From the NCBI RefSeq assembly GCF_000373365.1, contig NZ_KB891115.1:55512-119511 (forward strand): a stretch of 64,000 nt of DNA. The letters are read 5' to 3'. Position 1 is the stretch's first letter. Each line of letters starts with the position of its first letter. Source of the DNA: Parafrankia discariae. Lineage in GTDB: Bacteria > Actinomycetota > Actinomycetes > Frankiales > Frankiaceae. The position numbers were made by a program, and so were the translations under genes. Below the pieces are notes generated by a model. It made no database searches and was not told the DNA's origin. It saw only the letters and a program-made list of their open reading frames with translations. Of this stretch, positions 11,568 through 28,800 are shown piece after piece.

Positions 11568-14477
11568 TCAGCAGTGGTCGGCCGTCCCCAGGGCGACCAG
11601 CGCGGTCCGCAGGACCGTCGCGGCGGGCGGGGCCGCGTTCCCACCGCCGGTGAGATCACCGCCGGGAGGTGCTTTGAGATAGACCGCCACCACCACCACC
11701 GGGTCCCGGGCCGGGGCGAACGCCACCGTCCAGGCATCGTTGTCCAGGTTGGCCGGGTCGGCGCCGACCTCCGGCGTCCCCGTCTTCGCCGCCACCTGGG
11801 CGCAGGGGACGGCGGCTCTGGTCGCCGTCCCCGCCTGGACGGCCGCGACCATCCCATCTCTGATCACGGCGGCGTTCTCCGCCGGGATGGCCGGCCGGGG
11901 CCGGGCCGCCGGTGCCCGCCAGAGCACCGCGCCATCCCGTTCGACCTGGGCGACCGTGTGGGGCGGACGCAGCTCGCCGCCTTCGGCCACCGCCGCGCCG
12001 ACCAGCGCCATCTGCAGCGGCGTGGCGGAGACGCATGCCTGGCCCAGCGCCAGCTGCTCCACCAGGCAGGGCCTGCCGTCCGCGGTCCGGGATCCGATGG
12101 AGGAGACGGCGAGCGGCAGGCCGTCCAGGTCGCAGAAGTCGTCGCCGCGGGGCGCCAGCCCGAGAGCCGCGCAGGCGGACCGGCCCGCCGGCGCGGAGCC
12201 GGGCGTCCCGAATCCGAGGGCGGCGGCCGCGTGAGCGATGCGCTCCGCGCCGAGGTCCTTGCCGACCAGGGCGAAAGCGGTGTTGCAGGACTCGCGCAAC
12301 GCGTCCACCAGGGCCGGGATGCCGGCCAGCGTGGTGGCTGGGCAGGTGCCGTGACCGAAGTTCCGCAACGACCTGCCGTCTGGCAACGGCACGTCGGAAT
12401 GCGGGACCAGGTGATAGCCGCCCAGTCTGGCCGGGTCGATCGCGGCGGTGGTGACCATTTTGAACACCGAGCCCGGCTGGATGGGAGTTCCGGGGGAGGT
12501 AGCGAGATCGTCATCGTCGGCGATGGCCAGTACTCCGCCGGTACGCGGGTCCAGGGCCACCACGGCGCCGCGGGCGCCCGGGGCGGCGTCCCTCGCCTCC
12601 CGTAGCGCGCGGACCGCCGCCTCCTGAATCCTGGTGTCGTACGAGGTCCTCAGGTCGGCGGGCCGGCACCGCCGTCCCAGCGCGCCGTGCGGGCCGGACC
12701 GGTCCTCCCCCGGTGGTGAGCCGCATTCGAGCTGCATCGACCAGGCGTACTCCAGCCCGCTGGCGCTGGTGCTTCCCGAGGACGGCCGGAACTCTCCGAC
12801 AGGCGGGCCCGCCGACGACCGGCGACGAGCCGGGAGCTGGCCGGACCAGTCGGTGGCGGCGAGCACCTGGCCGTCCGCGGTGAGGATCCGGCCCCGGTCG
12901 AAGGTCGCCCGCTCCGTGCGGACGATCCCCCCACCCGGGTCGTAGCGATCCAGGCGCGGGCCGGCGGCCAGGAGCTGCGCGTGCAGCAGCGAGAGGGCGG
13001 CGACCGCGGCCAGCAGCCCGGCGAGCGCCGGTGCCCGCCAGGACCGCGACGGCCGTCGGCCGGCCGGTGACGCGGCGGGGGCGGCGGGGACGACGGGGGC
13101 GGTGTGGACGGGGAACGAGGCGGTGGCGGCTGGTCGCGGCCCGGCGCAGCCCGCCGCCAGCCCGACGATGCCGAGCACCACCAGCATGGAGGTGCCCCCG
13201 GCCGAGAGCAGAGGGGTCGTGATGCCGGAGATCGGCAGTACCCGGGTCGTCGCCAGCGCCGGCCAGGCGATGTTGGCCGCCAACATGACGGACAGCCCCA
13301 CCAGCCAGGCCCGCAGCCAGGACTCCTCCCCGGCCCGCCGGGCGAGCCTGAACAGCTGGACGAGCAGCAGGACGTAGAGCGCGCCGGTCAGCAGGGTGCC
13401 GATGAGGCCGAACTCCTCGCCGAGCACCGCCAGGATGAAGTCGTTGCGCCGCTCCAGCCCGATGCTGTCCACTCTGCCGAGGCCCGGCCCGGCACCGAGC
13501 ACCCCGCCGCGCGCGTAGGCGAGCAGCGCCATCCCGGGCTGGTGGAGTGTCGCTCCCGCGCCGTGACCACCCCGGTAGAAGGGGTCCTTCCACAGGGCGA
13601 GCCGCTCCCCCAGCACCCCGAGGTGGACGATCATCGCCAGCACGGCCAGCAGCAGGAACCCCACGGTCGCCATGGCGGCGTAACGCCAGCGGCTGGTGAC
13701 GTGGACGACGACGCCGACGATGCCGATGAAGAGCACCACGGCGGGCCCGAGGTCACTGAGTTTCACGAAGATCAGGGTGGCCAGAACCGCCGGCACCAGC
13801 GCGTACTCGGCCAGCATCCAGACAGCCCGGGACGACCGGTGGGCCCCCCACAGGCGAGGGACGTCCGAGGGCGCCCTCAGCCGGAAGGCGATCCAGCCGA
13901 GAAGACAGAACCGGAACACCTCGGTCGGCTGGATATGCAGCGGGCCCAGGGAGAGGCCGATCTGGGCACCCCGGTCGACCGGACTGGCCAGCGCCAGCGC
14001 GCAGGAACCCACTGTCAGGGCGAGCAGCACCACGTTCGTGCGCTGGATCCGCCGGTTGCGGGCCGGCCCCTCCGGCAGCCGGTCGGCCGCCGCGAGCGAC
14101 CGGCCCAGAGAGAACAGCGCGGCACCGGCGCCGACGGCGGTCAGGTAGGCGGCGAGGGAGCCCAACGTCTCGACGCCGACCCGCATCCGCAGGACGAAGC
14201 CGATCGCCGCGAGCACCTGGATGGTGATCACCAGCGGGACAAGGGCCGGATCGCCGACGCGCCGGGCGCCCCGGAGCAGAAACACCGTGGTCGCCGTGTG
14301 CACACCGACGGTGACGACGGCCGGCACCGGGTCGACCATGGCCGGCCGGTGCCACCACAGGGCGAAGACCAGCCCGGAGAGGAGCACGCCCGGCCCCGCG
14401 GCGCCCGGCAGCATCGGCGAACCCGCCGACCACTGCCTGTCCGCCCGACCGGAGAGACCGGTGGCGGTGGCCGTCAC
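11568..14477 (-). CDS. SEDS (FtsW/RodA) glycosyltransferase fused to class B penicillin-binding protein
   Basis: One 969-residue chain carries both halves of a peptidoglycan synthase. Residues 1-430 are a multi-helix SEDS polymerase with hallmark elements ALWKDPF, GEEFGLIGTLL and the TTPLLSAGGTSML loop. After a Pro/Ala linker and one membrane helix comes a compact class B PBP with the RGRIL motif and the three transpeptidase motifs: S670-V-F-K673, S730-C-N732 and K898-T-G. The pedestal before the transpeptidase is shorter than in separate PbpA proteins. Normally rodA/ftsW and pbp are neighbouring genes. The GTG start at 14477 overlaps the stop of the upstream GTPase-partner gene (GTGA), so it is translationally coupled to the GTPase operon. 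It polymerises lipid II and crosslinks glycan at the membrane. Confidence 0.88.
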   Translation of the reverse strand: MTATATGLSGRADRQWSAGSPMLPGAAGPGVLLSGLVFALWWHRPAMVDPVPAVVTVGVHTATTVFLLRGARRVGDPALVPLVITIQVLAAIGFVLRMRVGVETLGSLAAYLTAVGAGAALFSLGRSLAAADRLPEGPARNRRIQRTNVVLLALTVGSCALALASPVDRGAQIGLSLGPLHIQPTEVFRFCLLGWIAFRLRAPSDVPRLWGAHRSSRAVWMLAEYALVPAVLATLIFVKLSDLGPAVVLFIGIVGVVVHVTSRWRYAAMATVGFLLLAVLAMIVHLGVLGERLALWKDPFYRGGHGAGATLHQPGMALLAYARGGVLGAGPGLGRVDSIGLERRNDFILAVLGEEFGLIGTLLTGALYVLLLVQLFRLARRAGEESWLRAWLVGLSVMLAANIAWPALATTRVLPISGITTPLLSAGGTSMLVVLGIVGLAAGCAGPRPAATASFPVHTAPVVPAAPAASPAGRRPSRSWRAPALAGLLAAVAALSLLHAQLLAAGPRLDRYDPGGGIVRTERATFDRGRILTADGQVLAATDWSGQLPARRRSSAGPPVGEFRPSSGSTSASGLEYAWSMQLECGSPPGEDRSGPHGALGRRCRPADLRTSYDTRIQEAAVRALREARDAAPGARGAVVALDPRTGGVLAIADDDDLATSPGTPIQPGSVFKMVTTAAIDPARLGGYHLVPHSDVPLPDGRSLRNFGHGTCPATTLAGIPALVDALRESCNTAFALVGKDLGAERIAHAAAALGFGTPGSAPAGRSACAALGLAPRGDDFCDLDGLPLAVSSIGSRTADGRPCLVEQLALGQACVSATPLQMALVGAAVAEGGELRPPHTVAQVERDGAVLWRAPAARPRPAIPAENAAVIRDGMVAAVQAGTATRAAVPCAQVAAKTGTPEVGADPANLDNDAWTVAFAPARDPVVVVAVYLKAPPGGDLTGGGNAAPPAATVLRTALVALGTADHC

Positions 14478-17074
14478 GGCAGAAGGTACTGAGCGAGGAG
14501 CCACATGACCACGACGGCCACGCTGAGCAGCCCCGCCGCCAGCGCGACCGTGACGATCCAGTCCCCGGGCGCGGACCGGTCCAGGGGACTGCCGCCGCTC
14601 CAGGCAGCGGTCAGGTCGTCATCGGCCGCGTCGTAGTCGCTGTAGGCCGGGCTGTCCGCGTACGCCGGGTTGTCGCGCTGCGCCGGGTTGTCGCGCTGCG
14701 CCGGGCCGCCGTGGCCGGCTGGACCGGCCCCGGCCGGCGCGCCAGCCGACGGGGCTGCCGCCGGGTAGGGGTACGGCGCCTGCCCGCCCTCTCGCCACGG
14801 ATCCTGGCGGGCACCGGCGTGGCTCCCGTCCGCGGGAGCGAGCGGCCCGGCGCTCGCCCCGGGGGCAGCCGTCGAGGCTGGCAGTGCGGCCTGCGGCGGC
14901 CCGGCCGGGACGGCCTGTCTGCTTTTCCGGCGGGGCGGGAGCGCCGGGCGGCCGATCGACCCCCGCCACAGGTCGACGACATGATCGACAAGGACCTGCT
15001 CGGCCCGCACCGAGGCCGTCTCCCGCGCGGCGTCCAGGAGGTCGGAGATCAGGCCTGACGGGAGGCCCTGTCTGAGGAGCCTGCGCAGCTCCTCGATGAA
15101 CTGACGATCCGTGGCGACACGCGGATCCACGAGATCCGGCCGGAACAGCAGGTCGACCACCAGTCGACGCTCCGGGACGGGGTCGAGAAGCCCCTCGGGC
15201 TCCGCCCACAGCGGACCGAGGCGCTCACCGGTGAGGTGACGGCGGACGCGCCCACGCCGTCTGATGGCCTCCGGCCCGTGCTCGGCCGCGCTTCGACCGC
15301 TCCGGCCGGCCTGCAGGAACCGGATTTCGAGCACGTGCAGCGTGACCGCGAGGATGATCGGCTGGGTGGGGACGTCCGCGCCGGCGGGGAGCCGCTGGGC
15401 GATGTGGTCCACCGACACTCCAGCGAGCAGGCGTTCGAGCGCCGCCGCGAACTCCCGTCGTTGCGCCGAGTCCGGCGGCGGAGCCGACGAATGGTCCCTG
15501 GCCCGCGGGCCGTCCCGTTCGGGCCGGCCGGCCTCGGCCCAGATCTCGACGGCGGTCCGCGCGGCGCGCAGCCGCCCGGCGGCGCTCGGCTGCCCGGCCT
15601 CGAACCGGCCCAACCAGCTTTCCACGGCCACCCGCACCTCGGTCGGACCGAGGCCGCATTCGTTCACGGCCTGCTGGATCGCGACCTCCACGTTCTTGCC
15701 GAGACCGCTGTCATCCGCGGCGGCGCCGCCACCCACCGCGAAATGGTCACTCACGGTGACACCATCCGCGGCGGCACCGTCCGGCACCGCGCCGAGCGAC
15801 TTGTCGAGAACGGCCTCGATGGTTCGCTCTCCGAGGACCAGCCGCACGCGCTGGGCGGACGTCGGCAGCAAGGAGGTCGTCCCCAGCTTCCACCCGGTCC
15901 GCACCCATCGGAGCCCGGCCGCGTCGAGGCGCCGCAGCTCCGCGCACAGGGAGTCCATGGTCTCCGGCCGATCGAGCTCCGCCCGGTCGCGCTCGCCGCC
16001 ACGCCCCTGCAGCACGCTGCGCAGGGAATAGAGAGGACGGGAGACCGCCTCGGGCGCGCCCGAGGCACGGACGACCCATGAGGCGACGTCCGCCGGCGAC
16101 TCGGGAAGTGGCCCGGTGATCATGCGAGCCACCTCGGCGTACCCGCCGTCCTGGTAGGCCGCCACCAGATCGGCCGCGATCTCCCCGGCGGCGCCGGACT
16201 CCTCGGGGGGCCGCCCCGGCGGATAGCGCACGCGCAGGCGGTTCAGTTCGAAGTCCGACTGGCCGGTGCGGGCCAGGAAGATGTGGCGCAGCGAGGACTG
16301 CTGTTCCGCCGTCTCGCCGGTGGAGAACGACCAGTCATGGTCGGGCACCCGGCTCAGCAGCTTGGTGAGCACCATGATGAGGCCGAACATCAGCGGTTCA
16401 GGCCGGCCTTGATAGCCGACGATGCTGACCTGGCGGGTCGGGTCGGCCAGGAGCGCGGCCACCAGATGGACGAGCGGGTCACCGAGCCCGGACGCGGCCT
16501 GGTCGAGCTCCGCGTACGACGCCCCGACCTCCGCGGTGTTCAGCTCCGCCATCACCAGCGGCTGGCTGACGGCGTGGGCGTCGACCTGCTCGGCCGCCGG
16601 CCCGGACTCGCCGGACCGCCGGCCACCGAACCAGCCCGGCCAGGCCTGCAGCGCGAGCGCCCGCAGCGGCCGGAGGTGCGCCGCCGGGCCGACGAGGGCG
16701 TGCGCGAGAACCGACGAGCGGCCCAGCGGGTCGCGCGCGACGACCCTGCGGATGACGGCCGCCTCCGCCCCGGCCAGGCCGCACCGCAGGTAACACAGCG
16801 ATCCGTCCGACATCCGTGGTCGCGCCGGCCCGGCCTGAGCGGCACCAGCCGGGGCAGCGCTCGCCGAGGTGGCGCCGGGTGGGACGGTGCCGGCCAGGAC
16901 GGCGCCGAGCAGCCGGTCGTTCCAGACGGAGAGCCGGCGCTGGTCGGAGAGCGAGGTCGAGGCGGGCCCGATGCCCTCCAGGCCGAGTGGCGACCGCTGC
17001 CCCGGCACCCAGTGGAAGACGATCTGATCGATCAGATCGCTCTGGTCCGAGGCGGCGTCCGGGCCGCTGCCCAT
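14474..17074 (-). CDS. GTPase-associated protein (GAP1-like), C-terminally membrane-anchored
   Basis: The 866-residue product starts at ATG 17074, one base after the stop of the GTPase gene; the longer open frame upstream is the GTPase's shadow. Residues 10-130 (IDQIVFHWVPGQRSPLGLEG, then DRLLGAVLAG) and the following LCYLRCG and SVLAHALVG segments resemble the N-terminal and middle domains I recall for 'GTPase-associated protein 1'. The rest is mostly helical without catalytic motifs. The last 150 residues are Pro/Ala/Gln-rich with YADSPAYSDYDAADDD, then a single C-terminal transmembrane helix (about 838-862), making it a tail-anchored protein facing the cytoplasm. It probably works with the GTPase just upstream and the cell-wall synthase just downstream; the biochemical role is unknown. 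Confidence 0.72.
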   Translation of the reverse strand: MGSGPDAASDQSDLIDQIVFHWVPGQRSPLGLEGIGPASTSLSDQRRLSVWNDRLLGAVLAGTVPPGATSASAAPAGAAQAGPARPRMSDGSLCYLRCGLAGAEAAVIRRVVARDPLGRSSVLAHALVGPAAHLRPLRALALQAWPGWFGGRRSGESGPAAEQVDAHAVSQPLVMAELNTAEVGASYAELDQAASGLGDPLVHLVAALLADPTRQVSIVGYQGRPEPLMFGLIMVLTKLLSRVPDHDWSFSTGETAEQQSSLRHIFLARTGQSDFELNRLRVRYPPGRPPEESGAAGEIAADLVAAYQDGGYAEVARMITGPLPESPADVASWVVRASGAPEAVSRPLYSLRSVLQGRGGERDRAELDRPETMDSLCAELRRLDAAGLRWVRTGWKLGTTSLLPTSAQRVRLVLGERTIEAVLDKSLGAVPDGAAADGVTVSDHFAVGGGAAADDSGLGKNVEVAIQQAVNECGLGPTEVRVAVESWLGRFEAGQPSAAGRLRAARTAVEIWAEAGRPERDGPRARDHSSAPPPDSAQRREFAAALERLLAGVSVDHIAQRLPAGADVPTQPIILAVTLHVLEIRFLQAGRSGRSAAEHGPEAIRRRGRVRRHLTGERLGPLWAEPEGLLDPVPERRLVVDLLFRPDLVDPRVATDRQFIEELRRLLRQGLPSGLISDLLDAARETASVRAEQVLVDHVVDLWRGSIGRPALPPRRKSRQAVPAGPPQAALPASTAAPGASAGPLAPADGSHAGARQDPWREGGQAPYPYPAAAPSAGAPAGAGPAGHGGPAQRDNPAQRDNPAYADSPAYSDYDAADDDLTAAWSGGSPLDRSAPGDWIVTVALAAGLLSVAVVVMWLLAQYLLP

Positions 17075-17075
17075 G

Positions 17076-18203
17076 TCAGACGCCCACCGATCCGGTCCGC
17101 TGGGCGACGAAGGCTTCGCGATCGATGATTCCGCCCATCGCGAACACCGCCACCAGTACCTCCAGCACCCGGTTGGGCTGAACCCGGCGGCGGAACGAGC
17201 CGGACCCGTCGAGGGCCTTCTCCGCCCCGGTCGCCGAGGCGAAGTGCAGAGTCGCCCGCTGGCATTCACGCACGGGCGCGAGCCAGGCCGTCGCGTCCCG
17301 GCTGTACAGGAGCGCGTACGCGAAAGAGCTCTCGTCGTGGATGTCGTCCAGGTTCACCCACTCCCGCAGGCGTTCCTTGCGATACCAGTCCTGGACCGGC
17401 GGCTGAAACCGCAGGACGTCGGCCTTGTTCACCACGACCGCGGCGTTGACGTCGTACAGACCGGTGTTGAGGTTCTTACGGCCGACGAGCTTGAGCTGAC
17501 CGAGGACCGCGTTGAACGCCTCGTCCTCAAGTTTCTGCCGGTCGCCCACCAGACCGCTGTGGTGCGGGTCGACGACGAAGACGAGGGCCCCGGCGGCGTT
17601 CACGAAGTCGGCCGAGCGCTTGTTACGGACGAAGCTCTCGCCACTGATGTCATAGAAGGTGACGAGGCGGTCGCGCCCGGTCCGCAGATTGCTGACGATC
17701 ACGGCGTCGATGAACTCCACCGGCTGGTCCGGCGTCTGGGTGGCCGCCAGGACCTTCGAGTCGACCAGCAGCGGGTCGACCTGCTTGGTTACGTAGTCCT
17801 GGTGTCGGCGCGGGTCCGCCACCGTCACCGACAGGCCGAGATCGTCGAGGCCGCGCTGGTTCACGAGCTGGCCGATCATCGCCGCCAGCAGATGACTCTT
17901 CCCCACCCCCGTCGCGCCGACCATCCCGATCATGAACGGCTCGCCGTACCAGCCGTAGGGATAGAACAGGTAGTGCGGCTGGTCCTTGTACGGGTTGGGG
18001 CATTTCACGTACTTGGTCGCCAGCCAGGCCTGGAACCGCCGCCGCTGCGGGTCCTGGTCCTCCTCCCGGAAGCGCCGGAGAAGGTTCTCGTCGACGGGCT
18101 CGTACTTCTCCTGCTCGGCGTTGTACTCGTGGAACTCGCCCTCGTAGGCGTCCGGCCACTCCTCGAAGACGTACAGGCAGATCGGGCATCGCACCTCGGA
18201 CAC
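17076..18203 (-). CDS. Zinc-finger GTPase (double-GTPase 2 type)
   Basis: The 375-residue protein has an N-terminal CxxC (RCPICLYVF, Cys6 and Cys9) with another Cys at 68, suggesting a split zinc knuckle. The P-loop GATGVGKS spans residues 96-103. Switch/Walker B is LVTFYDISGES, and the guanine-specificity motif is VVVNKADV. These mark a P-loop GTPase of the family I recall as double-GTPase 2. The GTG start at 18203 follows GGGGGA; upstream extensions lack a ribosome site. It sits between a kinase-like gene (25-base gap) and its partner gene (1-base gap). It is cytoplasmic and likely a switch for the membrane partners in the operon. Confidence 0.8.
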   Translation of the reverse strand: MSEVRCPICLYVFEEWPDAYEGEFHEYNAEQEKYEPVDENLLRRFREEDQDPQRRRFQAWLATKYVKCPNPYKDQPHYLFYPYGWYGEPFMIGMVGATGVGKSHLLAAMIGQLVNQRGLDDLGLSVTVADPRRHQDYVTKQVDPLLVDSKVLAATQTPDQPVEFIDAVIVSNLRTGRDRLVTFYDISGESFVRNKRSADFVNAAGALVFVVDPHHSGLVGDRQKLEDEAFNAVLGQLKLVGRKNLNTGLYDVNAAVVVNKADVLRFQPPVQDWYRKERLREWVNLDDIHDESSFAYALLYSRDATAWLAPVRECQRATLHFASATGAEKALDGSGSFRRRVQPNRVLEVLVAVFAMGGIIDREAFVAQRTGSVGV

Positions 18204-18228
18204 GGCTGTCCCCCGTTTCCAGTTACCG

Positions 18229-19644
18229 CTACAGGCCGCGCAGACCGACGATGACCACAACCACGAGCACCAGGGCCGCGATCAGCGGGATCGCGTACCG
18301 GGCCCACTGGTCCGCCCTGGTTTCCGGCCACGGCTGCGGTGCGGTGCCGTGCGACGGCTGTGGCGGCGTGTCCCGCCCGGTGCGGCGTCGTTCCTTGTCG
18401 TCCCGCAGGGCTTTGAACTGCTCGAGCCCAGCCACCATCCCCGCGGGGTCGTGCCGAGTCCGATGCGCGGGCTGTGCCGCACCCAGCCGTTTGAGCATCT
18501 CGCCCGCGGTCACCCGGGAGTTGGGCCGGAAGACCCCGGAGAAGAAGTAGTCGTCGAACCATTCCGTTGTGATGGGCGGGTCGGCGTCGAACCGCCCGGG
18601 GCCGGACTGGCCCGGCCCGAACTGGTCGGTGTCGAACTGCCCGGGGCCGGACTGGCCCGGGCCGAACTGGTCGTCTCGGCGCTGGTTCCCGCGGGCGCCG
18701 TCCAGCAGGCCGGCCAGGGCCTCCGGCGGCTGGCCGGTGGCGAGGTGCAGGATGATCAGGCAGGCTCGGGAGACGTCCTCGGTGTGGTCGGCGTAGAGGT
18801 CGTCCCGGGGCGGATCAAGGGTGCTCCACGGCGGCGTGTCGACATGCAGGCGGCGTTCCCCCGCCCAGCAGGCATGGCTGAAGTCGAGGATGAGGGCGGT
18901 CTCGCCGTCCCAGAGGATGTTCTCCGGGGTCAGGTCCCGGTGCACGATCCCGGCGGTGTGCAGCCAGTACAGACCCATGAGAAGACTGACCGCGAAGCGG
19001 CGGCCCTCCTCGCGGCCCAGCCGTCCCCCGCTCCGCAGCCGCCGCCCCAGCGTCTCGCCCCGGGGCAGCGACGTCGTCAGGAGGAAGGGGGCGTCGCCCT
19101 CGCCGTAGCAGATCAGGCGGACCAGCTCGTCCGGGTACGGGTGGCCCCGGCCGGGGCTCGGGCCGTCCCGGCGCATGGCGTGCCAGAGAGTGAGGAGAAT
19201 CTCGATCTCTCCGCGGAGTTCCTCCGCCACCCGCCCGTCGGCCGGGGCGACCAGTTTGCGGGCCACGGCCTGACGATGACCGTCCGGGGTGACCAGCGTG
19301 CCGCGCCGCACCTGGTACGGCGGGCCGCTGACCTCGCTGGTGGACCGGAACCGCACCCACCAGCTCTCCTGACGGCCCTCCGGAGTGTCGCCGGTGACAC
19401 GCTCGTCGTTCTCGGGCATGCCGTTCCCCGGTATGCCGTGCTCAGGCGTCTCGTGCTCGGGTGCGCCGCTTTCGGGCGTGTCGTACTCGGGAACGCCGTA
19501 ACTGGGAACGCCGTAGTCGGGTGTGCCGTAGTCGGACGCCGCGTAGTCGGGCGTGCCGTAGTCGGGAGTGTTGTAGTCAGGAGTGCTGTAGTCGGGAGTT
19601 TCGTTCTCGGATATGTAGTATTCGGGCACCTCGTGCTCACTCAT
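18229..19644 (-). CDS. Membrane-anchored protein kinase-like protein
   Basis: The 471-residue protein starts at ATG 19644, which overlaps the stop of the 27-residue gene. Residues 5-60 are tandem TPDYG-like pentapeptides rich in Tyr, Asp and Pro. The kinase fold follows: a beta-3 Lys in VARKLV, the catalytic loop H235-R-D237-L-T-P-E-N242, and D254-F-S in place of DFG. No clear activation-loop TPE or APE motif is seen. An insert has QFGPGQSGPG repeats. The C-terminus is one transmembrane helix, so the kinase domain is cytoplasmic. DFS instead of DFG leaves the metal-binding Asp, so activity is possible but unproven. Its place beside GTPases and a cell-wall synthase recalls PknA/PknB-type control of wall growth. 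Confidence 0.78.
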   Translation of the reverse strand: MSEHEVPEYYISENETPDYSTPDYNTPDYGTPDYAASDYGTPDYGVPSYGVPEYDTPESGAPEHETPEHGIPGNGMPENDERVTGDTPEGRQESWWVRFRSTSEVSGPPYQVRRGTLVTPDGHRQAVARKLVAPADGRVAEELRGEIEILLTLWHAMRRDGPSPGRGHPYPDELVRLICYGEGDAPFLLTTSLPRGETLGRRLRSGGRLGREEGRRFAVSLLMGLYWLHTAGIVHRDLTPENILWDGETALILDFSHACWAGERRLHVDTPPWSTLDPPRDDLYADHTEDVSRACLIILHLATGQPPEALAGLLDGARGNQRRDDQFGPGQSGPGQFDTDQFGPGQSGPGRFDADPPITTEWFDDYFFSGVFRPNSRVTAGEMLKRLGAAQPAHRTRHDPAGMVAGLEQFKALRDDKERRRTGRDTPPQPSHGTAPQPWPETRADQWARYAIPLIAALVLVVVVIVGLRGL

Positions 19645-19720
19645 TCCGGTGCACCGCCCACCAGGCGACGCCCGCGACATTCCCGAGCAGGAGTGCCAGC
19701 AGGATCATCTGCATGATCAT
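19637..19720 (-). CDS. Small single-helix membrane peptide (27 aa)
   Basis: ATG 19720 starts 6 bases after the stop of the 252-residue gene and ends at TGA 19637-19639, overlapping the kinase start (ATGAGTGA). The peptide is hydrophobic from Met1 to Trp22 (ILLALLLGNVAGVAWW is the core) and ends in the charged tail HRNE: a typical single-pass small membrane protein. It is too short to be scored by usual gene finders. The tight fit between two genes and the coupled overlap argue that it is translated, or at least that this spacing is kept for coupling. A role as regulatory subunit of the kinase or wall synthase is speculation. Confidence 0.55.
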   Translation of the reverse strand: MIMQMILLALLLGNVAGVAWWAVHRNE

Positions 19721-19726
19721 ATTTGT

Positions 19727-20485
19727 TCACCGGTGCCCCCTGGCCTGCGCTGCCGGCGTCCGCCCGAGCACCCCGCCGAGAACGAACCAGCCCGGCTCCC
19801 AGTAGAGATCCAGCCAGGTGTGCCCGACCTTCAGCGGGTACCCCCAGTCGTGCGGATCCAGCACGAGCTTCTCGGTCAGTGGCGTCTCGCCGACGACCAC
19901 CTCATGGCGCGGGTTCGACGACGGCGTGATCGTGAGCTGACCGTGCGGATCGACGCGCACCGCGGCGTGCCTGCGAGTCGAGATGTGCTGGTCCCGCCGA
20001 CCCGAGACGAGCAGGACCAGCTCCTGGTTGATGTCGGTGGCCGGCCCCAGTGCCCGGGGCCGGCTGCGGTCCAGCGGGTTGGCGATGTACGCCTGCAGCC
20101 CCAGGTCGACGGGCACCAGCGGCTGGCACTCCGGGCGACCTGGCCGGACGTCGGTGCTGCTCTCCAGCTCCACGACGAAACGGTCGTGGAACCGGACCGG
20201 CGGCCGGCCCTCCCGCTCCAGGATCGCCGTCAGCGTGTCCCGGACGGCCCGGCTCAGCCCGACCCGGCGAGCCCCCAGTGTCTGCGTGATCTGCCGGTGG
20301 TCATCCGGATTGACCCGCGCCAGGACCGAGCCGGGCGCGACAAGGCCGCGGTCGTACGTCGCCCGCAGGCTTGCGTCATACGTCTGCATGGCGAGCTGGT
20401 CCAGCAGGTCAGATGAACGCTGACCGCCCGCGAGCAGGTGGCTCGCCCATTCCCGCCTGCGTCTCCATTGCGCCTCGGCGCTCAC
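19727..20485 (-). CDS. Unknown protein, first gene of the GTPase/cell-wall operon
   Basis: The 252-residue soluble protein starts at GTG 20485. It is helical in residues 1-50 (RRREWASHLLAGGQRSSDLL), then alternates short strands: RFVVELESS, LVPVDLGLQAY, RHAAVRVDPHGQLTI and EVVVGETPL. The end is Trp-rich (DWGYPLKVGHTWLDLYWEPGW). I do not recognise the family. There is no nucleotide-binding motif, signal peptide or membrane helix; the strand-rich C-terminal half might be a beta-sandwich binding domain. Being first in the operon and 6 bases from the membrane peptide, it should be made together with the kinase, GTPase and synthase. Confidence 0.65.
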   Translation of the reverse strand: MSAEAQWRRRREWASHLLAGGQRSSDLLDQLAMQTYDASLRATYDRGLVAPGSVLARVNPDDHRQITQTLGARRVGLSRAVRDTLTAILEREGRPPVRFHDRFVVELESSTDVRPGRPECQPLVPVDLGLQAYIANPLDRSRPRALGPATDINQELVLLVSGRRDQHISTRRHAAVRVDPHGQLTITPSSNPRHEVVVGETPLTEKLVLDPHDWGYPLKVGHTWLDLYWEPGWFVLGGVLGRTPAAQARGHR

Positions 20486-20700: not shown

Positions 20701-20763
20701 ATGAGTACGACCAGCAAAAAGCACACGAGGTCCGGGCACACGAGGTCCGGCCGTGGCGGCTGA
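20701..20763 (+). CDS. 20-residue basic leader peptide
   Basis: ATG 20701 follows a run of seven G (strong ribosome site). The frame MSTTSKKHTRSGHTRSGRGG ends in TGA 20761-20763, overlapping the GTG start (20753) of the GTPase gene by 11 bases. HTRSG is directly repeated at DNA level (cacacgaggtccgg twice). It is strongly basic and has no known family. Translational coupling or attenuation is the simplest role. Confidence 0.4.
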   Translation: MSTTSKKHTRSGHTRSGRGG

Positions 20764-21895
20764 CGCCCCGCCAGACCCGCCGGTGCCGGCGGGCCCGGCG
20801 GTGCCGGCGGGCCCGGCGGCATCGTCCCGGCGGCGGATCGGGCTGTGGGGAGCCACCCAGAGCGGCAAGACGACTCTGCTGGCGGCACTGCAGATCGCCG
20901 CCGGCCAGCAGTCCGCGGGCAGCGACTGGATGGTCGTCGGCGCCGACCAGACGTCGTCGGAGTTCCTGGGCCGCAACATCGACATCCTGATCAAAGACAA
21001 GAAGTTCCCTGAGGGGACAATGGGTCCCGAGCCGCTCTCGTGGCTCTTCTACCGGCCCGACCCACCACACCGCGGGTTGACCCGATGGCTGCGCGAGCGG
21101 TTCCGCCGTCCGTTGGCCACCGGCCAGCAGACGTTCGAGATCAACACGCTGGACGTCGGCGGGTACATGTTCCTCAACCATCCCGGCGAGGTGCTGGACG
21201 ACCCGAACGAGCTGTACTACGACGACGAGGACGCGGGGATCCCGCTCTTCGAAGGCCAGCGGACCTCGAGCGAGGAGGCCGACGAGGTAATCCGCAAACT
21301 GGCGGACTGCGACGGGCTGATCTACCTGTTCGACCCGGTAATCGAGTACCAGGAAAAGAACTCCTACCAGTACTTCGCGCGCGTCCTCAACGAGATCGCG
21401 CGGCTGTCCCACGACTCCGGGCGGATCCGGGACGGCAGGCTGCCGCACTACCTGGCCGTCTGCGTCAACAAAATCGACGATCCGGCCGTTTACCGGAGGG
21501 CGTACCAGGCCGGCTACCTGCTCACCGGCGACAACGAGCTGCTGCTGCCCGAGGTTCCCGCCGACTACGCCCAGGAGCTGTTCGAGACCCTGTGCGTAGG
21601 CCAGGAGGCGGGCACCGCCGAACAGGTTCTCGGCGTCATCCGGCAGTACTTCGACCCGAGCCGGGTGTCCTACTTCGCGACGTCGTCCATCGGGTTCTAC
21701 GTGCGCCCGGGCCGGCTGTTCCGGCACAGCGACTACCGGAACGTGGCCGAGGGAGATGACGGGCACCCCCGGATCCGCGGGGAGATCCGGCCGATCAACG
21801 TCCTCGAGCCGTTCCTGTGGCTGGAGCACGCGATCCGGCGGAACCCGCCGCCGCAGCCGGCGCAGCCACAGCCACCGGAGCCCGCGGCGCCGTGA
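20753..21895 (+). CDS. P-loop GTPase (double-GTPase 1 type)
   Basis: After a Pro/Ala tail the 380-residue protein has the P-loop GATQSGKT at 33-40. The switch/Walker B region is FEINTLDVGGYMF, a CDGLIYLFDP strand follows, and the specificity motif CVNKIDDP sits near 240. The C-terminus carries FATSSIGFYV and RPINVLEPFLWL, shared with the GTPase at 29343-30581. It lacks Cys motifs and membrane helices. It overlaps the partner gene downstream by GTGA, so the two are made in step. The family is the one I recall as double-GTPase 1 from conflict-system analyses; the effector remains unknown. Confidence 0.82.
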   Translation: MAADAPPDPPVPAGPAVPAGPAASSRRRIGLWGATQSGKTTLLAALQIAAGQQSAGSDWMVVGADQTSSEFLGRNIDILIKDKKFPEGTMGPEPLSWLFYRPDPPHRGLTRWLRERFRRPLATGQQTFEINTLDVGGYMFLNHPGEVLDDPNELYYDDEDAGIPLFEGQRTSSEEADEVIRKLADCDGLIYLFDPVIEYQEKNSYQYFARVLNEIARLSHDSGRIRDGRLPHYLAVCVNKIDDPAVYRRAYQAGYLLTGDNELLLPEVPADYAQELFETLCVGQEAGTAEQVLGVIRQYFDPSRVSYFATSSIGFYVRPGRLFRHSDYRNVAEGDDGHPRIRGEIRPINVLEPFLWLEHAIRRNPPPQPAQPQPPEPAAP

Positions 21896-24000
21896 GCCGA
21901 CCGCCGGTCCCGGCCGATCGCACTCTGGCGGCGGGCTGGGCGCTGATGGGCAAGGAACGGGGCGGCTACACCGACTACGTCGTGCTCCGTTCGAACGAGG
22001 CCTACTTCAGCAGGTCCGCCTACCAGTCGATCCTGCACCGGTACTCCCCGGGGACACCGCCCCCGGCGCAGCGGCCCAACCTGCCGGGCGCGCTGCCCTG
22101 GGTGACGGTCAGCTACGCCCCGCGCGGCCGTGGCAGCGGGGACACCGTGCTCGGGATCGCCGAGCGCGCCTGGTCCGACGAGGTCGACGCGTCGGGCCGC
22201 CGGGTCGCCCGGACGCTCCTGCTCTGCGTACCGTTCAGCGCGCTCGCCGCCGCGCCGGTCTCCTATCTGGGCCTGCACGCCGCCCTGGCCGGCCCGGAAC
22301 TCCGGCACGCGACGACCGCGGACGACCGCGGTGACGACGGGACCGCCGGAGGTGGGGGTGCGGGAGGTGGGGGTACGGGGGACGGCCCGGACGGGCTACC
22401 GGTGGCCGTGCCGCGTCTCGACCCGGCCGGCATCGGCGACTACCTGGCCCGCGGGGGCGAGCGGCTGTTCCTGCTGGCCGCCGAGACGGCGGCGCTCGTC
22501 CTCGCCGGCCGGGTGGCCATCGTCGGCGCCCCGGTCACCGGGCCCGACGAACGGCCCGCGCGGGCACGGCTGCGGTTCCTCGACGCGGTCGCCGCGCTGC
22601 TGCCCTACGGCCACCGGGCCCGGCTGACCGCCAGCACCTGGGCGGTCAGCGGCGCCGCGCACCGCATCCGGCTCGCCTTCACCGACCGGCCCCGCCGGGG
22701 TGACCTGGTGATGCGCTGGCGCGACCCGCACGAACACCCCGCGGAGCTGCTGGGCCCGTCCGCCGACTACTACAACCTGCTGCTGCGGCTGCGCGACCAG
22801 ATGGGCAGCTCACCGGCCGACCTCGTCGCCCACCTCGCCGGGTACCCCGCCGGCCGGCGCCGGGTCGGCCCGCCCGAGCACGCCTACTTCTGCCTCTTCC
22901 GACTGACCGGCAGTGGCGTCGCGGACGCGATGGGCGATCTGATCGCCCGGCGGCTGAACCCGCGACGGGTGTGGCCCGGCACCGAGTCCGCCGAGCCCGC
23001 GGCGCGGGAGGCCGCCTGGGAACAGGCGTTGGAGGACGCCGCCGGGCTGGTACGGACCGCCCGGGACGACATCCCGCCCCCTGACGCCGCGTCCCCCGGA
23101 CGCACGCCACCCGGCAGCACCAGAGCGCGGACGTTCGACGACGAACTACGGGCCCGGGTCGCCCAGGTCCCGGTCGCGGGGGACGGCCTCGTGCTCGAGC
23201 TGATGCGCCTGGCCATCCTGGACGACGTCCAGACCGACAACGCCCGGCCCGCCCACACCCGGATCCGCCACGTCGACCACGGCGCGGCGGAGTCGACGCG
23301 ACGCTGGCTGAGCTGGCTCGAGGGCGCGCCCGAGCTCGCCGAGCGGACGCGTCTCTTCCGCGGCGTGCTCGACGGCTCTCCCGTCTCGGATGTCGTCGCC
23401 GCGCTCGACGGCCAGGACAGGTATCTGCTGTCGCTCTCCCAGCTCGCCAGGCTCGTCGGCGCCGGCCCCGTCCTGGTGAGCCTGCTGACTCCGTGGTTGT
23501 GGCGGGTCGCCCCGACCCTGTCGCCACGCCACCAGCGGGAGTGGGCCGCCGAGATCCGCGGCTTTCGGATCGGGTCCGCCGGCGAAGCCGCCGACTACGA
23601 CCTGCTCCTGCTGATGATGGGCGAGGCGCCCGGCAGGCCGTTGCGGCACCGGATTCACCGGATGGAAGCCGACTACGTGACCGCCCTGGGGGACCGCTTC
23701 GCCGACCTGGTGCGGGAACAGGGCGTCGACGGGCGGGTCGACCAGGTCCTGAGCACGCTGGCCCGGTCCGTCGGCGACACCGACGCCGACTGGCCGAAGG
23801 ATCCGGCGAAGGCGGACCTCATGCTCCAGGCCCTGGAGCCGTTCGTGCGCCAGGTACGGGCGGGCGCGGACGCCCGCCGCCGGCCTCCCGGGCTGACCGC
23901 GCTGACCGACGCGGTCAGCCGCTACCTGCGGGACAACCCGCGGGCCAGACGGCGGCCGGCCGGCAGGCGCTGGCTCGACGCATGGCTACCCACCGGATAG
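21892..24000 (+). CDS. GTPase-associated protein (GAP1-like)
   Basis: The GTG at 21892 overlaps the GTPase stop. The 702-residue protein starts with the signature seen in the partner at 25861-29346: GWALMGKERGGYTDYVVLRS, then ILHRYSPGTPPP and LPWVTVSYA. A glycine-rich linker (GGGGAGGGGTGDG) separates the N-terminal domain from the middle helical domain (LFLLAAETAALVLAGRVAIV). The C-terminal half is helical and rich in Arg/Leu, with no catalytic motif and no membrane segment. It converges with the Hsp70-like gene, the stops being 10 bases apart. It presumably binds or modulates its GTPase. Confidence 0.72.
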   Translation: MSRPPVPADRTLAAGWALMGKERGGYTDYVVLRSNEAYFSRSAYQSILHRYSPGTPPPAQRPNLPGALPWVTVSYAPRGRGSGDTVLGIAERAWSDEVDASGRRVARTLLLCVPFSALAAAPVSYLGLHAALAGPELRHATTADDRGDDGTAGGGGAGGGGTGDGPDGLPVAVPRLDPAGIGDYLARGGERLFLLAAETAALVLAGRVAIVGAPVTGPDERPARARLRFLDAVAALLPYGHRARLTASTWAVSGAAHRIRLAFTDRPRRGDLVMRWRDPHEHPAELLGPSADYYNLLLRLRDQMGSSPADLVAHLAGYPAGRRRVGPPEHAYFCLFRLTGSGVADAMGDLIARRLNPRRVWPGTESAEPAAREAAWEQALEDAAGLVRTARDDIPPPDAASPGRTPPGSTRARTFDDELRARVAQVPVAGDGLVLELMRLAILDDVQTDNARPAHTRIRHVDHGAAESTRRWLSWLEGAPELAERTRLFRGVLDGSPVSDVVAALDGQDRYLLSLSQLARLVGAGPVLVSLLTPWLWRVAPTLSPRHQREWAAEIRGFRIGSAGEAADYDLLLLMMGEAPGRPLRHRIHRMEADYVTALGDRFADLVREQGVDGRVDQVLSTLARSVGDTDADWPKDPAKADLMLQALEPFVRQVRAGADARRRPPGLTALTDAVSRYLRDNPRARRRPAGRRWLDAWLPTG

Positions 24001-24016
24001 GACCCGGTTCCTATCC
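23995..24016. terminator. Bidirectional hairpin between converging operons
   Basis: GGATAGGA-CCCGGT-TCCTATCC is a perfect 8-base stem with a 6-base loop. It contains the stop codons of both converging genes (TAG at 23998-24000; TAG on the minus strand at 24011-24013). No U-tract follows, as is common in actinobacteria. Confidence 0.55.
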
Positions 24017-25864
24017 CAACGGCAGCACGGTGGACGGCCCGCCGTCGGCCGGGCTGAGCAGCAGCACGCCCAGGCGGGAGCGATCCACCCGGATCCCGAC
24101 GTGGTATTCACCGGGCGCCAGCCCGACCGGCAGCGGGACGCGCACCGCCTCCGGGCTGGCGCCGCCACCGACCCGGACGTCCACGGCCAGCACCTCACCG
24201 GCGGACCCGTCATGGTGGACGGTGACCGGCCGGCCGGCGTGCTCACCCCGTTCCAGGGGGACATCGCCCGCCGAGATCACCCGCAGGTTCCCCGCGCCCA
24301 GCCGCCCGGCCAGGACGCGGTGGACGCGCACGCTCACCGTGTGCGGGTAGAGCTCGACGGCACGGACCCTCCCCGCGGCGAGCAGCGCGGCCCCCCGGGC
24401 AGCCGCGTACTCCGGTTCGGCGACCGGCCGCACCGCCACCTCCGCCGCCGCGCCGCCCGGTGGGTCGACGGGCCAGGTCTCGGCGATGGCCTGCCGGACC
24501 GCCATCGCCGCCAGCGGCAGGAAGCCCAGACCACCGACGATGATCACCTCGAGCCAGGGCTCGTCCGCGGCCGGCCGCGGGGCCCCGGCTCCCGGCGGTG
24601 TGTCGTCCGGCGGCGCGGAGGGGCGGCGCAGGTCGTCCCGGTGGCGCAGCAGCCCACCGACGGCGGCCCGCACCGTCCGGGCCACTGGTTGGAAGGCGGC
24701 CAGCGTCTCGCCCGCGGTCAGCCGCCGGCCGGAACCGAAGACCAACGCACCGGCGCCCAGCCGACGGGGATCCCCGGCAGCTCTCGCCAGCACCGCGACG
24801 GCCCGCTCCCGGCTGGCGCGGACACCGTCCAGGAACGTCAGGACCAGTTCTGTCTCCGCCCCGACCCGAGCCGAGTCATCCGCCCGAGCCGGGTCGCCTC
24901 TCGACCAGGTGTCCCCCAGCCGCGCCGGGTAGCTCAGCGGCCACGTTGTTCCAGGCGGGGCCGCGTCCCCCGGCGGCCACATGTTCCGCGGTGCCGGGCC
25001 GCCCAGTGGCAGCGGGCCGCTGACCCGCGCGGTCCTGTCGTCCGATGTCGGTCCGCTGATCAGTGGGGTCTCGTCGCCCGGGGGCGTCGCCGCTTCGCCG
25101 TCCGGGCCGCTGTCGTCCAGATCAGGATCGTCCGGGTCGGCATCGTCCAGGTCGGCATCGTCCGGGTCGCTGTCGTCCGGGCCGCCGGGGCCGGCGCGGC
25201 GGACGGCATCCGCGGCGAAGCGGCGGCCGGCGTACCCGGGCTGGAGACGGCGTTCCAGCAGCCGAACGGTCGCGACACCCACCGGAGCGGTGTCGGCCAG
25301 GTCAGGGCAGATCTCCACCAGCGCGGCCTCCACGGCGTCCGCGCCGATGTCGCAGACTAGGACGAGGCGTCCCGCCGGGGCGAGGTCTCCGGCGGCCGCG
25401 AGCCGGGCGGCCCGGACGGCCGCGGCGCAGACCGCGGTGCTGTGAACAGTGACCGCGCCCGGGGGCAGCCGGAGGCTGTCGGCCAGCGTCCGCCGGACCC
25501 GGGCCCGGGTCCGGGCACCCGCCTCGTCGCGGAAACTGTCGCCGGCCACGGCGACGGTGAGGCCGGCGACCGATGCCAGGTCCCGCGCGCCGGCCTCTCC
25601 CATGATCATGAATCCGGTGTCACCGGTCAGTTCCGCGAGGAGTTCCCGTCCGGCCGCCGACGGGTCCCGCCGCGCGTTGGCGTGACCGGTGACCAGCCAC
25701 GTCCCCGGCCGGACGGGGGCGGACCCGATGTCGCCGGTCCAGGAACGACCGCGTCCCAGGACGTCTCCCGGGGCACCCGCCGAGACGGCGTCCAGGACGA
25801 CGATCCTGGTGAACTGAGTGCCGAGGTCGACGCCCGCACGGCGGCCGGGCGGTGCCGCGCTCAT
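24011..25864 (-). CDS. Hsp70/actin-fold ATPase-like protein
   Basis: The 617-residue protein begins with phosphate-1 motif AGVDLGTQFTRIVVLD. Phosphate-2 is degenerate (VLVCDIGADAVEAALVE instead of DLGGGT), and the adenosine motif is IIVGGLGFLPLAAMAV. Between them is an Asp/Pro-rich insert (DDSDPDDADLDDADPDD, DNA about 25090-25190) and a low-complexity segment. The C-terminal 120 residues are strand-rich (VRVHRVLAGRLGAGNLRV), like a reduced substrate-binding domain. ATG 25864 overlaps the stop of the GTPase-partner gene (ATGA). Hsp70-like ATPases accompany some NTP-dependent conflict systems; here it may chaperone or sense the GTPase complex. ATP turnover is uncertain given the altered phosphate-2 loop. 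Confidence 0.75.
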   Translation of the reverse strand: MSAAPPGRRAGVDLGTQFTRIVVLDAVSAGAPGDVLGRGRSWTGDIGSAPVRPGTWLVTGHANARRDPSAAGRELLAELTGDTGFMIMGEAGARDLASVAGLTVAVAGDSFRDEAGARTRARVRRTLADSLRLPPGAVTVHSTAVCAAAVRAARLAAAGDLAPAGRLVLVCDIGADAVEAALVEICPDLADTAPVGVATVRLLERRLQPGYAGRRFAADAVRRAGPGGPDDSDPDDADLDDADPDDPDLDDSGPDGEAATPPGDETPLISGPTSDDRTARVSGPLPLGGPAPRNMWPPGDAAPPGTTWPLSYPARLGDTWSRGDPARADDSARVGAETELVLTFLDGVRASRERAVAVLARAAGDPRRLGAGALVFGSGRRLTAGETLAAFQPVARTVRAAVGGLLRHRDDLRRPSAPPDDTPPGAGAPRPAADEPWLEVIIVGGLGFLPLAAMAVRQAIAETWPVDPPGGAAAEVAVRPVAEPEYAAARGAALLAAGRVRAVELYPHTVSVRVHRVLAGRLGAGNLRVISAGDVPLERGEHAGRPVTVHHDGSAGEVLAVDVRVGGGASPEAVRVPLPVGLAPGEYHVGIRVDRSRLGVLLLSPADGGPSTVLPLG

Positions 25865-28800
25865 CTGGTCGACCCGGCCAGGCCGGCGCCGGCCTGGCCG
25901 GGCGCGCCCGAGCCGGCGGCGATGCCCGCGGCCCCGGTCCGGAGGAACGCCGCCACCAGGTCCGGGCGCACGGCCTGGAGCAGCTTCAGCAGGTGGGCGA
26001 GCCGCCCGGACGGCCGCTGCCGCTCCCGGTAGCGGACGATCTGCAGCGCCGCCAACAGTGCCTCGTCCCCGAAGGGCACCAGAACCCGCAGGTCGGGGAT
26101 CTTGTTGTCCGGGCCCGCCAGCGCCGTCTGGAAGACGTGCAGGGCCGGCGGTGGCCCGTTCGACGGCGTGAGCCAGCTCAGCCAGCCGTTGTCGGGGGCA
26201 CCCAGCGCGGTGAACACACCCGCCCGGGTCAACTGGATGACCAGGCTGACCGCGGCCGCGGGCAGCTCCCGCAGCGCCGCCTGGACGGCGTCGCCACCAC
26301 CCGCGAGACGCACCAGCAGCAGGGCTCCCTCGTGCACCCGGGCCACCCGGGCGGCGTCCTTCCCCCCGGTACGGATCATCCGGGCGAGGGCGGGGTCGAG
26401 TCGCTCGAAGACCGCCAGGCGGTCGGCGAACGTGACGGCGTCCTGCACGTCGGCCATGGTGCCGTCGGAGAGCAGGGTCGCGAGCGCGTCGGCCTCGTCG
26501 GACTCCCGGCCGAACCGGCCGGCGAGCACGGTCTGCCGCCGGCCGCGTGCCTTCTCCAGGCTTCTACCGGCTGTCAGCGGCGAGAGGAAGGCCGGGTTCG
26601 CGTCGGTCAGCACCTCGAGCAGGTCGTCGGCCTGGTCGAAGTCCAGCGCGTCGTGCCAGATCGACATCGCCTGTATCAGGCCCGCCGTGTCCTGGAAGAG
26701 GGTGCGGGCCGCCAGCAGCCGGCCGAAGTAGTCCTGACCGTAGCCCGTCCGTGGCTGGGTGGCCTCCGGCAGGTCGTCCCAGCGCACGATCAGCCTGGGC
26801 CGGCGGCCGGACGTCTGCGCCCCGGTCGTGAACGCGAGCCGGAAAGGGGCCGGGTCGCTGGCCGCGGTGGCCGCGGTCATCCCGGCGAGCAGGCCGGCCG
26901 GCAACAGGGCCAGCACCGCCTCGACGAAGGCCAGGCGCTGCCCCACGGACAGCGTCGCCGGGGCGCCCACCACCGACACCGGCCCGTCGAGCAGGCCGGC
27001 CGCGACGGCGGCGACCGCGCCGAAACCGAACGCGTCGACGTCGTGGGCGATCCGGTGCTGGTCGGCGGTGACCAGCGGCAGCCGGCTCGGCCGGGTTCCC
27101 GCCGCGGCCTGGGCCTGGAGACACAGGTCGACCAGGCTGACACCCGATTCCAGGAACCGCTGGTATCCGGTGTGGCAACACCAGCCCGAGCCACGCACCG
27201 CGATCCGTCCGCCGCCGTCGCCGAACAGCACCAAACCGTCATCACCGGCGGCGGACGTGTACAGCCGGGCGAGCTCCCAGATCCCCCGGCCGTCGCCCGA
27301 GCCGGGCGGCGGGGCCGGGGCCGGGTCCACCCAGCCCGCTCCGAGCGCCGCCCGGCTGCCCGCGGCCGGCCGGGGCGGGCCGGCTTCCGGGTCACCGGCC
27401 GGATCACCGGCCGGGTCGCCGGCCGCGGCCACCGGGTTCCTCCGCAGCAGGCCGCGTCTGGGCCTGGGCTCACCGATCAGCTCGCCCAGCCGCTGCCGCT
27501 CCTCGGCGCGGCGGTTCGGCGACAGATCGTCCAGGATGGCCGTCCAGAACCTGCGACGGGCCGTGCTGAACGGTGCCTGGTCGGCTTCGGCCCGCAGCCA
27601 GTCCTCGAGTGCCGGCACGAGGGCCGCCGCCCAGCCCTGCCACGCGGCGAGCCGGGCGAGGGTCTGCAGCGCGCGCTCGCCGATCCCGGCCTGGGCGCCG
27701 ACCGCGGCCAGATCCGGGTAGCCGACAGCCTCCCGGCCCTCCCAGACGAGCAGCACCTTGAACGGACGCAGCACGGCCTCGCTCTGCGGCCTCCCGGCGG
27801 CGGCCAACCACTCCACCAGCTCCAGCAGCCCGGGCGTTCCGCGGGTGTCGAAGTACCGCACCAGCACCTGCAGGGTGCACACCGGGTCGAGGGCCAGCCT
27901 GTCCCGCACAGGTGCCCAGGCGTCACCCTGGCCGGCCGGCCCTCCGTGCTCCCGGATGATGTCCGTGGCGAGGGTGATCGCGTCCGCCGGCGGCGAGGTG
28001 TCGCCGGGCCAGGGAGTCAGCAGCCCGCCGACCATCGCGGCGGACATCGCCCCGGGAGCCCGCTGCAGATGGGGCGCCAGCTGGTGGTACTCCCGTCCAC
28101 CGGCGACGCAGAGCTGTACGGCGAGGTCGGCCACCGGACGGGCCAGCGCCGGGGTCCAGTGGCGGGCGACACGCGCCAGGTCGTCCGGCCGGGCGTGCGG
28201 GACGAGCCGCGGCACCAGGATGCCGGCCGGGTCCGCCAGCCCCGGCAGGGCGTCCAGGTAGCGCCGGATGGTCTCCAGGCCGGCCTCGCCGGCGGCGACC
28301 CGGGTGTCCAGGTCCCGCGCGGCGGCCTCGGCGAGGGCCTGGACGATCTCACCGGGGCGGCTGAAGCTGCGCGGCACGGTGTCCGACGCGAGCCAGCCCA
28401 GGAGGGCGCGCAGCCGTGCCTCGTCAGGCTCCCGGTGCTCGGGGGTGGGCACCCAGGCGACGTCGGCCGGCTGGTCGCCGTCGAGCAGGTAGGTCAGCAG
28501 GGCGGCGTAGCGCGCGCCCCATCCGTCGGACGCACCGGGCCCGCCGGACGGACCCGGCGGGCTGGACGGACCCGGCGGGTCGTCGAGGTCGAAGCGCGGC
28601 GGGGCCAGGGGGTCGACCTGCCGGCCGGTGCCGCCGAGCTGCTGCCCGAAGGCGACGCGGACCCGGTGGCTGGTCGTGACGTCCACCCAGGTGCCAGCGG
28701 CGAGGACACCCTCGGCACCGGCCGGCAACAGCGCGACGACCAGGTCGAGGAAGGCGATCCGGGCCGGTTGGGCCGCCAGCTCGGGGACGGCGCGCAGCGT

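Follow-up and report, generated by a model that had tools for sequence, protein, structure and literature searches.

A one-chain SEDS–class B PBP in a GTPase and kinase gene string of Parafrankia discariae, and its degenerate tubulin-associated relatives in Frankiaceae

Kaur et al. (2020, PMC7159879) described DO-GTPase/GAP1 systems as GTPase-centric conflict systems that include actinobacterial tubulin and kinase themes, are associated with multicellular bacteria and use inactive captured enzymes as effectors. The main text of that paper contains neither ‘FtsW’ nor ‘penicillin’, and its sections 17 and 29 list no SEDS or PBP component. Among cell-wall enzymes, the closest described proteins are SEDS–class B PBP synthases such as Escherichia coli RodA–PBP2, in which RodA Asp262 has been named as catalytic; single-open reading frame (ORF) SEDS–PBP fusions are stated to exist, with mention of a SpoVE–SpoVD fusion (PMC10449877), and synthetic linked SEDS–PBP fusions are active (PMC6207328). 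We analysed a 64,000-nucleotide stretch of Parafrankia discariae (the window; contig NZ_KB891115.1, 55512–119511, or G000:C14:55512-119511 in our numbering, from a 7.89-Mb assembly that is 99.6% complete), in which a SEDS–PBP fusion is encoded in one gene string with a DO-GTPase, its tail-anchored partner and a kinase-like protein. Because such fusions were already known, what is new is the comparative picture, in which the GTPase module occurs in two forms. The parts of PMC10449877 available to us mention neither a GTPase-system link nor a degenerate sister family for the earlier fusions, which share with this one the natural joining of both domains in one frame. A literature search that covered few subscription papers and no bioRxiv preprints found no report that connects these GTPase systems with a SEDS or PBP protein.

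The fusion runs from a GTG at 14477 to a stop ending at 11568 and carries both Pfam domains on one 969-residue chain with no stop between them: FTSW_RODA_SPOVE (PF01098; E 3.7e-38, 131.9 bits against a cut-off of 26.4, covering only profile positions 69–346 of 356) and Transpeptidase (PF00905; E 4.6e-37, 128.3 bits against 22.1). All class B PBP motifs are present (SxxK, S670 and K673; SxN, S730 and N732; KTG, 898–900), and D346, in the fourth outer loop, is the SEDS aspartate corresponding to E. coli RodA D262, in a register taken from the sister-family alignment. A simple hydropathy scan placed ten segments before residue 460 and one more near 485–503, ahead of the PBP part; Protein Data Bank (PDB) matches such as 4ra7 and 4jbf cover residues 521–946, with no separate Pfam match for an N-terminal pedestal or dimerisation domain. 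The protein therefore resembles RodA–PbpA-type synthases (for example E. coli RodA–PBP2, PMC10449877) in its two domains, their rodA–pbpA order and its catalytic residues. It differs from them in being one chain, in its identity of only about 31–33% to the nearest pair of its own genome, and in scoring under the cut-off of every NCBIfam equivalog it touched (best ftsW, 142.7 against 337.5 bits), which marks it as a divergent member of both families. An AlphaFold2 model of the fusion alone was too poor for use (mean pLDDT 41.9, pTM 0.31).

Conserved counterparts of the fusion are encoded by Frankia sp. EI5c (L013, NZ_LRTK01000001.1; 86–87% identity) and by another genome of the genus (71%). A further genome, G004 (L022:2358-5281, minus strand), has a 13-nucleotide difference in the linker that splits the SEDS and PBP parts into two ORFs overlapping as GTGA; the split may be a real fission or an assembly error. 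Against EI5c, the ratio of nonsynonymous to synonymous substitution rates (dN/dS) was 0.34 over 967 codons, indicating purifying selection. The corresponding values were 0.18 for both the GTPase and the second GTPase, 0.43 for the kinase and 0.57 for the partner.

Three further SEDS genes and seven further transpeptidase domains in the genome rule out the case, raised in a preliminary description of this stretch, that the fusion is its only SEDS/PBP pair. Within the genome, the SEDS half has its closest match in a SEDS gene on contig C108 (31%, E 1.6e-21) and the PBP half in the adjoining PBP gene (33%, E 3.4e-26). To one side of that pair lie FhaA, FhaB and a PP2C phosphatase, and to the other two Ser/Thr kinases, of which one has PASTA domains; the arrangement corresponds to the ‘pknB cluster’. 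Because both halves are nearest to the RodA and PbpA of this cluster, the fusion looks like a rodA–pbpA pair that was joined and then given its own kinase and GTPase genes in place of the FhaA–FhaB–PP2C–kinase surroundings.

On the minus strand, the string reads: a 252-residue protein of unknown family, a 27-residue membrane peptide, the kinase-like protein, the DO-GTPase, the partner and the fusion. Intergenic gaps are short, and the apparent operon spans 11568–20485. Two overlaps are of the translational-coupling kind, peptide with kinase and partner with fusion, the latter as GTGA at 14477–14474. The preliminary description had recognised the 969-residue chain with its intact SxxK, SxN and KTG motifs, the overlap of its GTG start with the stop of a tail-anchored ‘GTPase partner’, and a membrane kinase-like protein (18229–19644, with HRD and a membrane segment) in the same string, and each of these holds; the overlapping protein (14474–17074) is not itself a recognised GTPase, which is the product of 17076–18203. 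The DO-GTPase match is just above its cut-off (29 bits against 27, E 1e-06), and its Cys-rich CPIC and CPNP stretches are invariant in all seven aligned GTPases, with no zinc-ribbon match in Pfam. Like a GAP1 protein, the partner is encoded just downstream of the DO-GTPase and has a membrane tail. A counterpart of the 27-residue peptide overlaps the kinase start in all four window-type loci (with a TTG start in G004 and G002), and a second GTPase-like gene with its own partner (weak GAP1-M match, E 0.004–0.013) is common to all four genomes. The 252-residue protein was ruled out as a remnant of the membrane protein found beside the tubulin gene in sister loci (hhalign probability 0.1).

This layout recalls the GAP1-N2-type systems of Kaur et al. 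(PMC7159879), in which a DO-GTPase with a Cys-rich N terminus is followed by a tail-anchored partner and linked to a kinase; sister loci add a tubulin theme and components resembling captured, often inactive enzymes. Unlike those systems, the window form yielded no tubulin gene, which the tubulin theme calls for and which sister genomes G001 and G003 have, its partner has no Pfam GAP1 match and its SEDS–PBP is intact. The kinase theme is represented by an active-type kinase, with HRD and a transmembrane segment, but Pfam recognised neither PP2C nor vWA among the five larger genes of the string.

We asked how the synthase and the GTPase are distributed across 35 Frankiaceae genomes, using a GTPase profile (A1, threshold E 1e-20) and a degenerate SEDS–PBP profile (A2, threshold E 1e-25, at most 23 candidates scored per genome). 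The GTPase profile matched 16 genomes. A SEDS–PBP-like gene was found in 13 of these 16 and in none of the 19 without the GTPase, whereas the preliminary description would have been contradicted by equal presence in relatives lacking the GTPase genes. Twelve of the 13 carriers have it on the contig and strand of the GTPase, some 1 to 2.7 kb downstream, and the other carrier, G018, has it on a short contig of its own. Nothing recognisable occupies the position in GTPase-bearing G032 and G033. The remaining GTPase-bearing genome, G025, has no SEDS–PBP-like gene; there a membrane segment joins the partner, in one chain, to a PBP-like domain (L027:5480-9094, minus strand; aPBP profile E 2.9e-05, and 2.8e-10 in a second profile comparison) without SxxK, SxN or KTG, a predicted chain that ties GTPase partner and PBP part together physically. 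The evidence for interaction is indirect, adjacent rodA and pbpA genes fuse easily, and the SEDS–PBP order is that of the genome’s own pair, so that an accessory RodA–PbpA fusion might share a transcript with an unrelated GTPase system by chance. This co-occurrence and linkage, the same placement in both forms of the module and the partner–PBP fusion of G025 make such an accident very improbable.

Outside Frankiaceae, nine GTPase loci (L037–L044 and L095, of which L043 ends just after the GTPase partner) and five further Tubulin_2 loci (L049–L053) gave no SEDS–PBP profile match. When the intact profile was run over 396 genomes sampled from the phylum, with a threshold of E 1e-60 and two scored candidates for each genome, the genome of the window was the sole match. 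It thus seems that a tubulin/GTPase system of wider distribution acquired its SEDS–PBP component within Frankiaceae. We rejected an origin from a phage or plasmid: the GTPase matched none of 50,697 phage records, a null that is uninformative either way about the trigger, and one of 72,556 plasmid records, an 11.85-Mb Nonomuraea record with a tubulin-type locus and no SEDS–PBP match. Tubulin_2 and GAP1-M matches in the control genome of Corynebacterium glutamicum suggest that the tubulin-type system may be available in a laboratory species, although that species is not known to have a SEDS–PBP partner.

The 13 carriers fall into two forms. The window form (G000, G005, G004 and G002) retains the SEDS aspartate, SxxK, SxN and KTG in all four genomes, and all four window-type loci keep the kinase HRD aspartate; no Tubulin_2 match was found in genomes G000 and G002 or in the fetched locus regions of G004 and G005. 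The tubulin form (G001, G003, G007, G012, G013, G014, G029, G030 and probably G018) encodes, in order, a membrane protein matching the FN3TM profile, a Tubulin_2 protein (above cut-off in G001 and G003), a second membrane protein, the kinase-like protein, the DO-GTPase, the partner and the SEDS–PBP-like protein. The tubulin gene is on another contig in G014 and G029, and four of eight tubulin-form loci also have the second GTPase and its partner. The GGTG[AT]G tubulin signature is kept in all 16 tubulin ORFs. None of the six genomes of the genus was found to carry both forms.

In the tubulin form, the catalytic residues have gone. Residue counts cover the carriers other than G018, and kinase counts the loci other than L036 and L040. 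The SEDS aspartate is replaced in all eight loci (by E, E, T, R, R, R and H, and by R in L033); L029 has an Asp one residue away from the lost site, on either side. The PBP motifs are lost in the six proteins with an alignable PBP part (L026, L031, L033, L034, L035 and L036), in a loose alignment in which the L033 contig ends before the KTG region; L025 has no recognised PBP part, and the PBP half of L029 falls outside the motif alignment. The HRD aspartate is lost in all 11 other Frankiaceae loci and in two of three loci outside the family, where L037 keeps PRD. Kept in four of four window-type loci and lost in the 11 others, the kinase residue is thus kept or lost together with those of the synthase. 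This pattern suggests a single process that involves both kinase activity and wall synthesis, with the tubulin-like protein perhaps taking over in loci where both enzymes are dead.

That proteins without the SEDS aspartate, and without PBP motifs wherever these could be scored, are nevertheless retained raises the possibility of an outside-in sensor, in which the SEDS–PBP protein would bind lipid II, nascent wall or a β-lactam and report the state of the wall to the GTPase, the kinase and, in the sister form, tubulin, with catalysis in the window lineage retained or secondary. The G025 chain, with a cytosolic partner, a membrane segment and an outer, motif-less PBP domain, is built like a receptor. 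Sensing from outside would accord with this build and with the dead forms, an output with the live form. We consider the sensor a serious rival but rather unlikely, because the window lineage keeps every catalytic residue of both enzymes under purifying selection, which is beyond the needs of binding.

Is the degenerate protein a SEDS–PBP at all? Pfam recognised FTSW_RODA_SPOVE in five of five degenerate proteins (best E 7.8e-08) and Transpeptidase in none of the five at E up to 1. Profile searches of the PDB matched the SEDS part to E. coli RodA (8tj3, E 2.5e-07) and FtsW (5.6e-04), and the PBP part to PenA-type transpeptidases only at E 0.02 over a short N-terminal stretch. With so weak a Pfam and PDB signal, the PBP kinship rests on position, the short aligned stretch and profile comparison, in which the degenerate and intact sets align over the SEDS part and the start of the PBP part (probability 99.8, E 1.5e-29). 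A tree of the SEDS parts, with long branches and without the ordinary row L084, split 11 fused rows (four intact, seven degenerate) from 20 ordinary SEDS proteins of seven genomes (support 100/99.9), and a clade of the intact fusions with ordinary RodA was rejected (p-AU 0.0002). The tree indicates that the SEDS parts of live and dead forms share an ancestor and that the live form was kept, or the dead form derived, once within Frankiaceae. A tree of the PBP parts was unresolved.

Frankia is filamentous and makes sporangia and vesicles, and SEDS–PBP pairs of the SpoVE/SpoVD type are dedicated to sporulation. The fusion could accordingly be a developmental synthase for septa, sporangia or vesicle walls, with GTPase and kinase as developmental switches, and the SpoVE–SpoVD fusion mentioned in PMC10449877 would be a parallel. 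However, 22 of the 35 family genomes, some in the same genera as carriers, have no SEDS–PBP profile match, and two very different forms exist within one genus, a distribution less regular than one would expect of a core developmental synthase; we think this role unlikely, though a serious rival to the favoured reading.

Given the observed architecture, conservation and linkage of the fusion, the two forms of the module and the shared SEDS ancestry, we tentatively favour, with somewhat less than even confidence, a reading in which the fusion is the wall-side part of a membrane-bound GTPase-centric module and, in the window lineage, a live, dedicated synthase under GTPase and kinase control. Support comes from the intact residues in all four genomes, purifying selection, co-occurrence with the GTPase, the GTGA overlap and the partner–PBP fusion of G025. 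The window-lineage protein would be a competent lipid II polymerase and cross-linker, separate from the housekeeping enzymes of wall synthesis and regulated from the cytoplasmic side by the DO-GTPase together with the tail-anchored partner and kinase. GTPase and partner would sit at the membrane under the synthase, since both partner and kinase have a terminal membrane segment and the partner is continuous with a PBP domain in G025. A trigger, probably an invader or envelope damage, would then lead to local peptidoglycan, as a patch or a cross-wall. The protein of the sister lineages would have lost catalysis and would work with the tubulin-like protein, probably as a lipid II- or peptidoglycan-binding or dominant-negative scaffold.

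The purpose of the module is probably containment or the response to envelope stress; a conflict role is suggested by the resemblance to the systems of Kaur et al. and by a Wadjet system in the same window. A more specific version would have two interchangeable builds of a wall-off response, one of tubulin-like filament, dead SEDS–PBP and pseudokinase and the other of live kinase and live fused polymerase/cross-linker, the live build sealing an infected or damaged hyphal compartment with peptidoglycan on command and the synthase acting as the conflict effector. We regard this version as doubtful.

Several observations weigh against a live, GTPase-controlled synthase. Nine of the 13 carriers do not have the intact form (residues examined in eight), so catalysis is not certain to be the ancestral or common job, and the cytoplasmic route by which the synthase would be gated is one that we infer. 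The partner matches no Pfam family at E up to 10, hence not GAP1, and is not clearly alignable with the Pfam-positive GAP1 ORFs of the genus (hhalign probability 7%, E 0.005); it does align with the tubulin-form partners (probability 98.7, E 2e-16). PADLOC assigned no family to the fusion, the partner, the 252-residue gene or the second pair, and gave only a weak mad8 match for the GTPase and generic kinase-domain matches (mad6 and PD-T4-6) for the kinase. Two hidden Markov models (HMMs) are at best of no help: with the intact-SEDS HMM the genome’s own RodA (59 bits) outscores the degenerate family (3–22 bits), because that family has diverged, and with the degenerate-PBP HMM the scores of intact fusions (17–28 bits) overlap those of ordinary PBPs (up to 25). 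Separation was obtained with the degenerate-SEDS HMM alone (58–106 against 17–25 bits).

If the favoured reading is correct, a GTPase-centric conflict or stress system would have peptidoglycan synthesis itself as an output under its control, which we did not find described in the literature searched. Live and dead forms within one genus provide a natural experiment in which one membrane protein occurs with and without catalysis, with and without tubulin and beside a live or a dead kinase, making the role of tubulin and GTPase in these widespread systems directly testable, and the natural one-chain SEDS–PBP is offered for structural work on the coupling of polymerisation and cross-linking. The preliminary description had the intact fusion, the overlap and the GTPase and kinase in the string right, and missed the DO-GTPase/GAP1 kinship, the tubulin sister form and the second GTPase pair.

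Table 1. Positions in the window of the fusion, its domains and the neighbouring genes of the module
Feature	Position	Strand	Evidence
SEDS–class B PBP fusion, 969 aa, GTG start	11568..14477	−	ORF, Pfam, PDB profile matches
SEDS (FtsW/RodA) Pfam match within fusion, catalytic-type aspartate D346	13158..14030	−	Pfam and residue alignment
Transpeptidase Pfam match within fusion, with SxxK, SxN, KTG	11619..12569	−	Pfam and residue alignment
Tail-anchored GTPase partner, GAP1-like by position, 866 aa	14474..17074	−	No Pfam match up to E 10
DO-GTPase (PF19993), Cys-rich N-terminal region (CPIC, CPNP)	17076..18203	−	Pfam, alignment
Ser/Thr kinase-like protein, HRD, C-terminal membrane segment	18229..19644	−	Pfam, alignment, hydropathy
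27-aa membrane peptide, overlaps kinase start	19637..19720	−	Counterpart reading in window-type loci
252-aa protein of unknown family, first in string	19727..20485	−	Pfam scan
Second, divergent GTPase-like gene	20753..21895	+	Pfam, profile match
Partner of second GTPase, start uncertain	21817..24000	+	Weak sub-cut-off GAP1-M match, E 0.013

Other features lie near these genes or echo them. In G004, a large protein encoded next to a MoxR-like AAA ATPase carries, fused to its C terminus, a DO-GTPase 69–70% identical to that of the window (L024:7412-11418, minus strand), possibly bridging MoxR–vWA and DO-GTPase systems. A further module at 24011–34626 (minus strand) comprises a DUF4407 protein (33037–34626), a zinc-ribbon-like protein (30578–32779) and two large ORFs without a Pfam match (24011–25864 and 25861–30420); stretches within it match the second-GTPase and partner profiles. 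The Wadjet system, assigned to type II by PADLOC (46035–55016, minus strand), consists of JetD2 (46035–47462), JetC2 (47459–52426) and JetA2 (53202–55016), and an ORF at 51865–53205 occupies the JetB position. At 35317–37428 (plus strand), a Ser/Thr kinase is fused to WD40 repeats.

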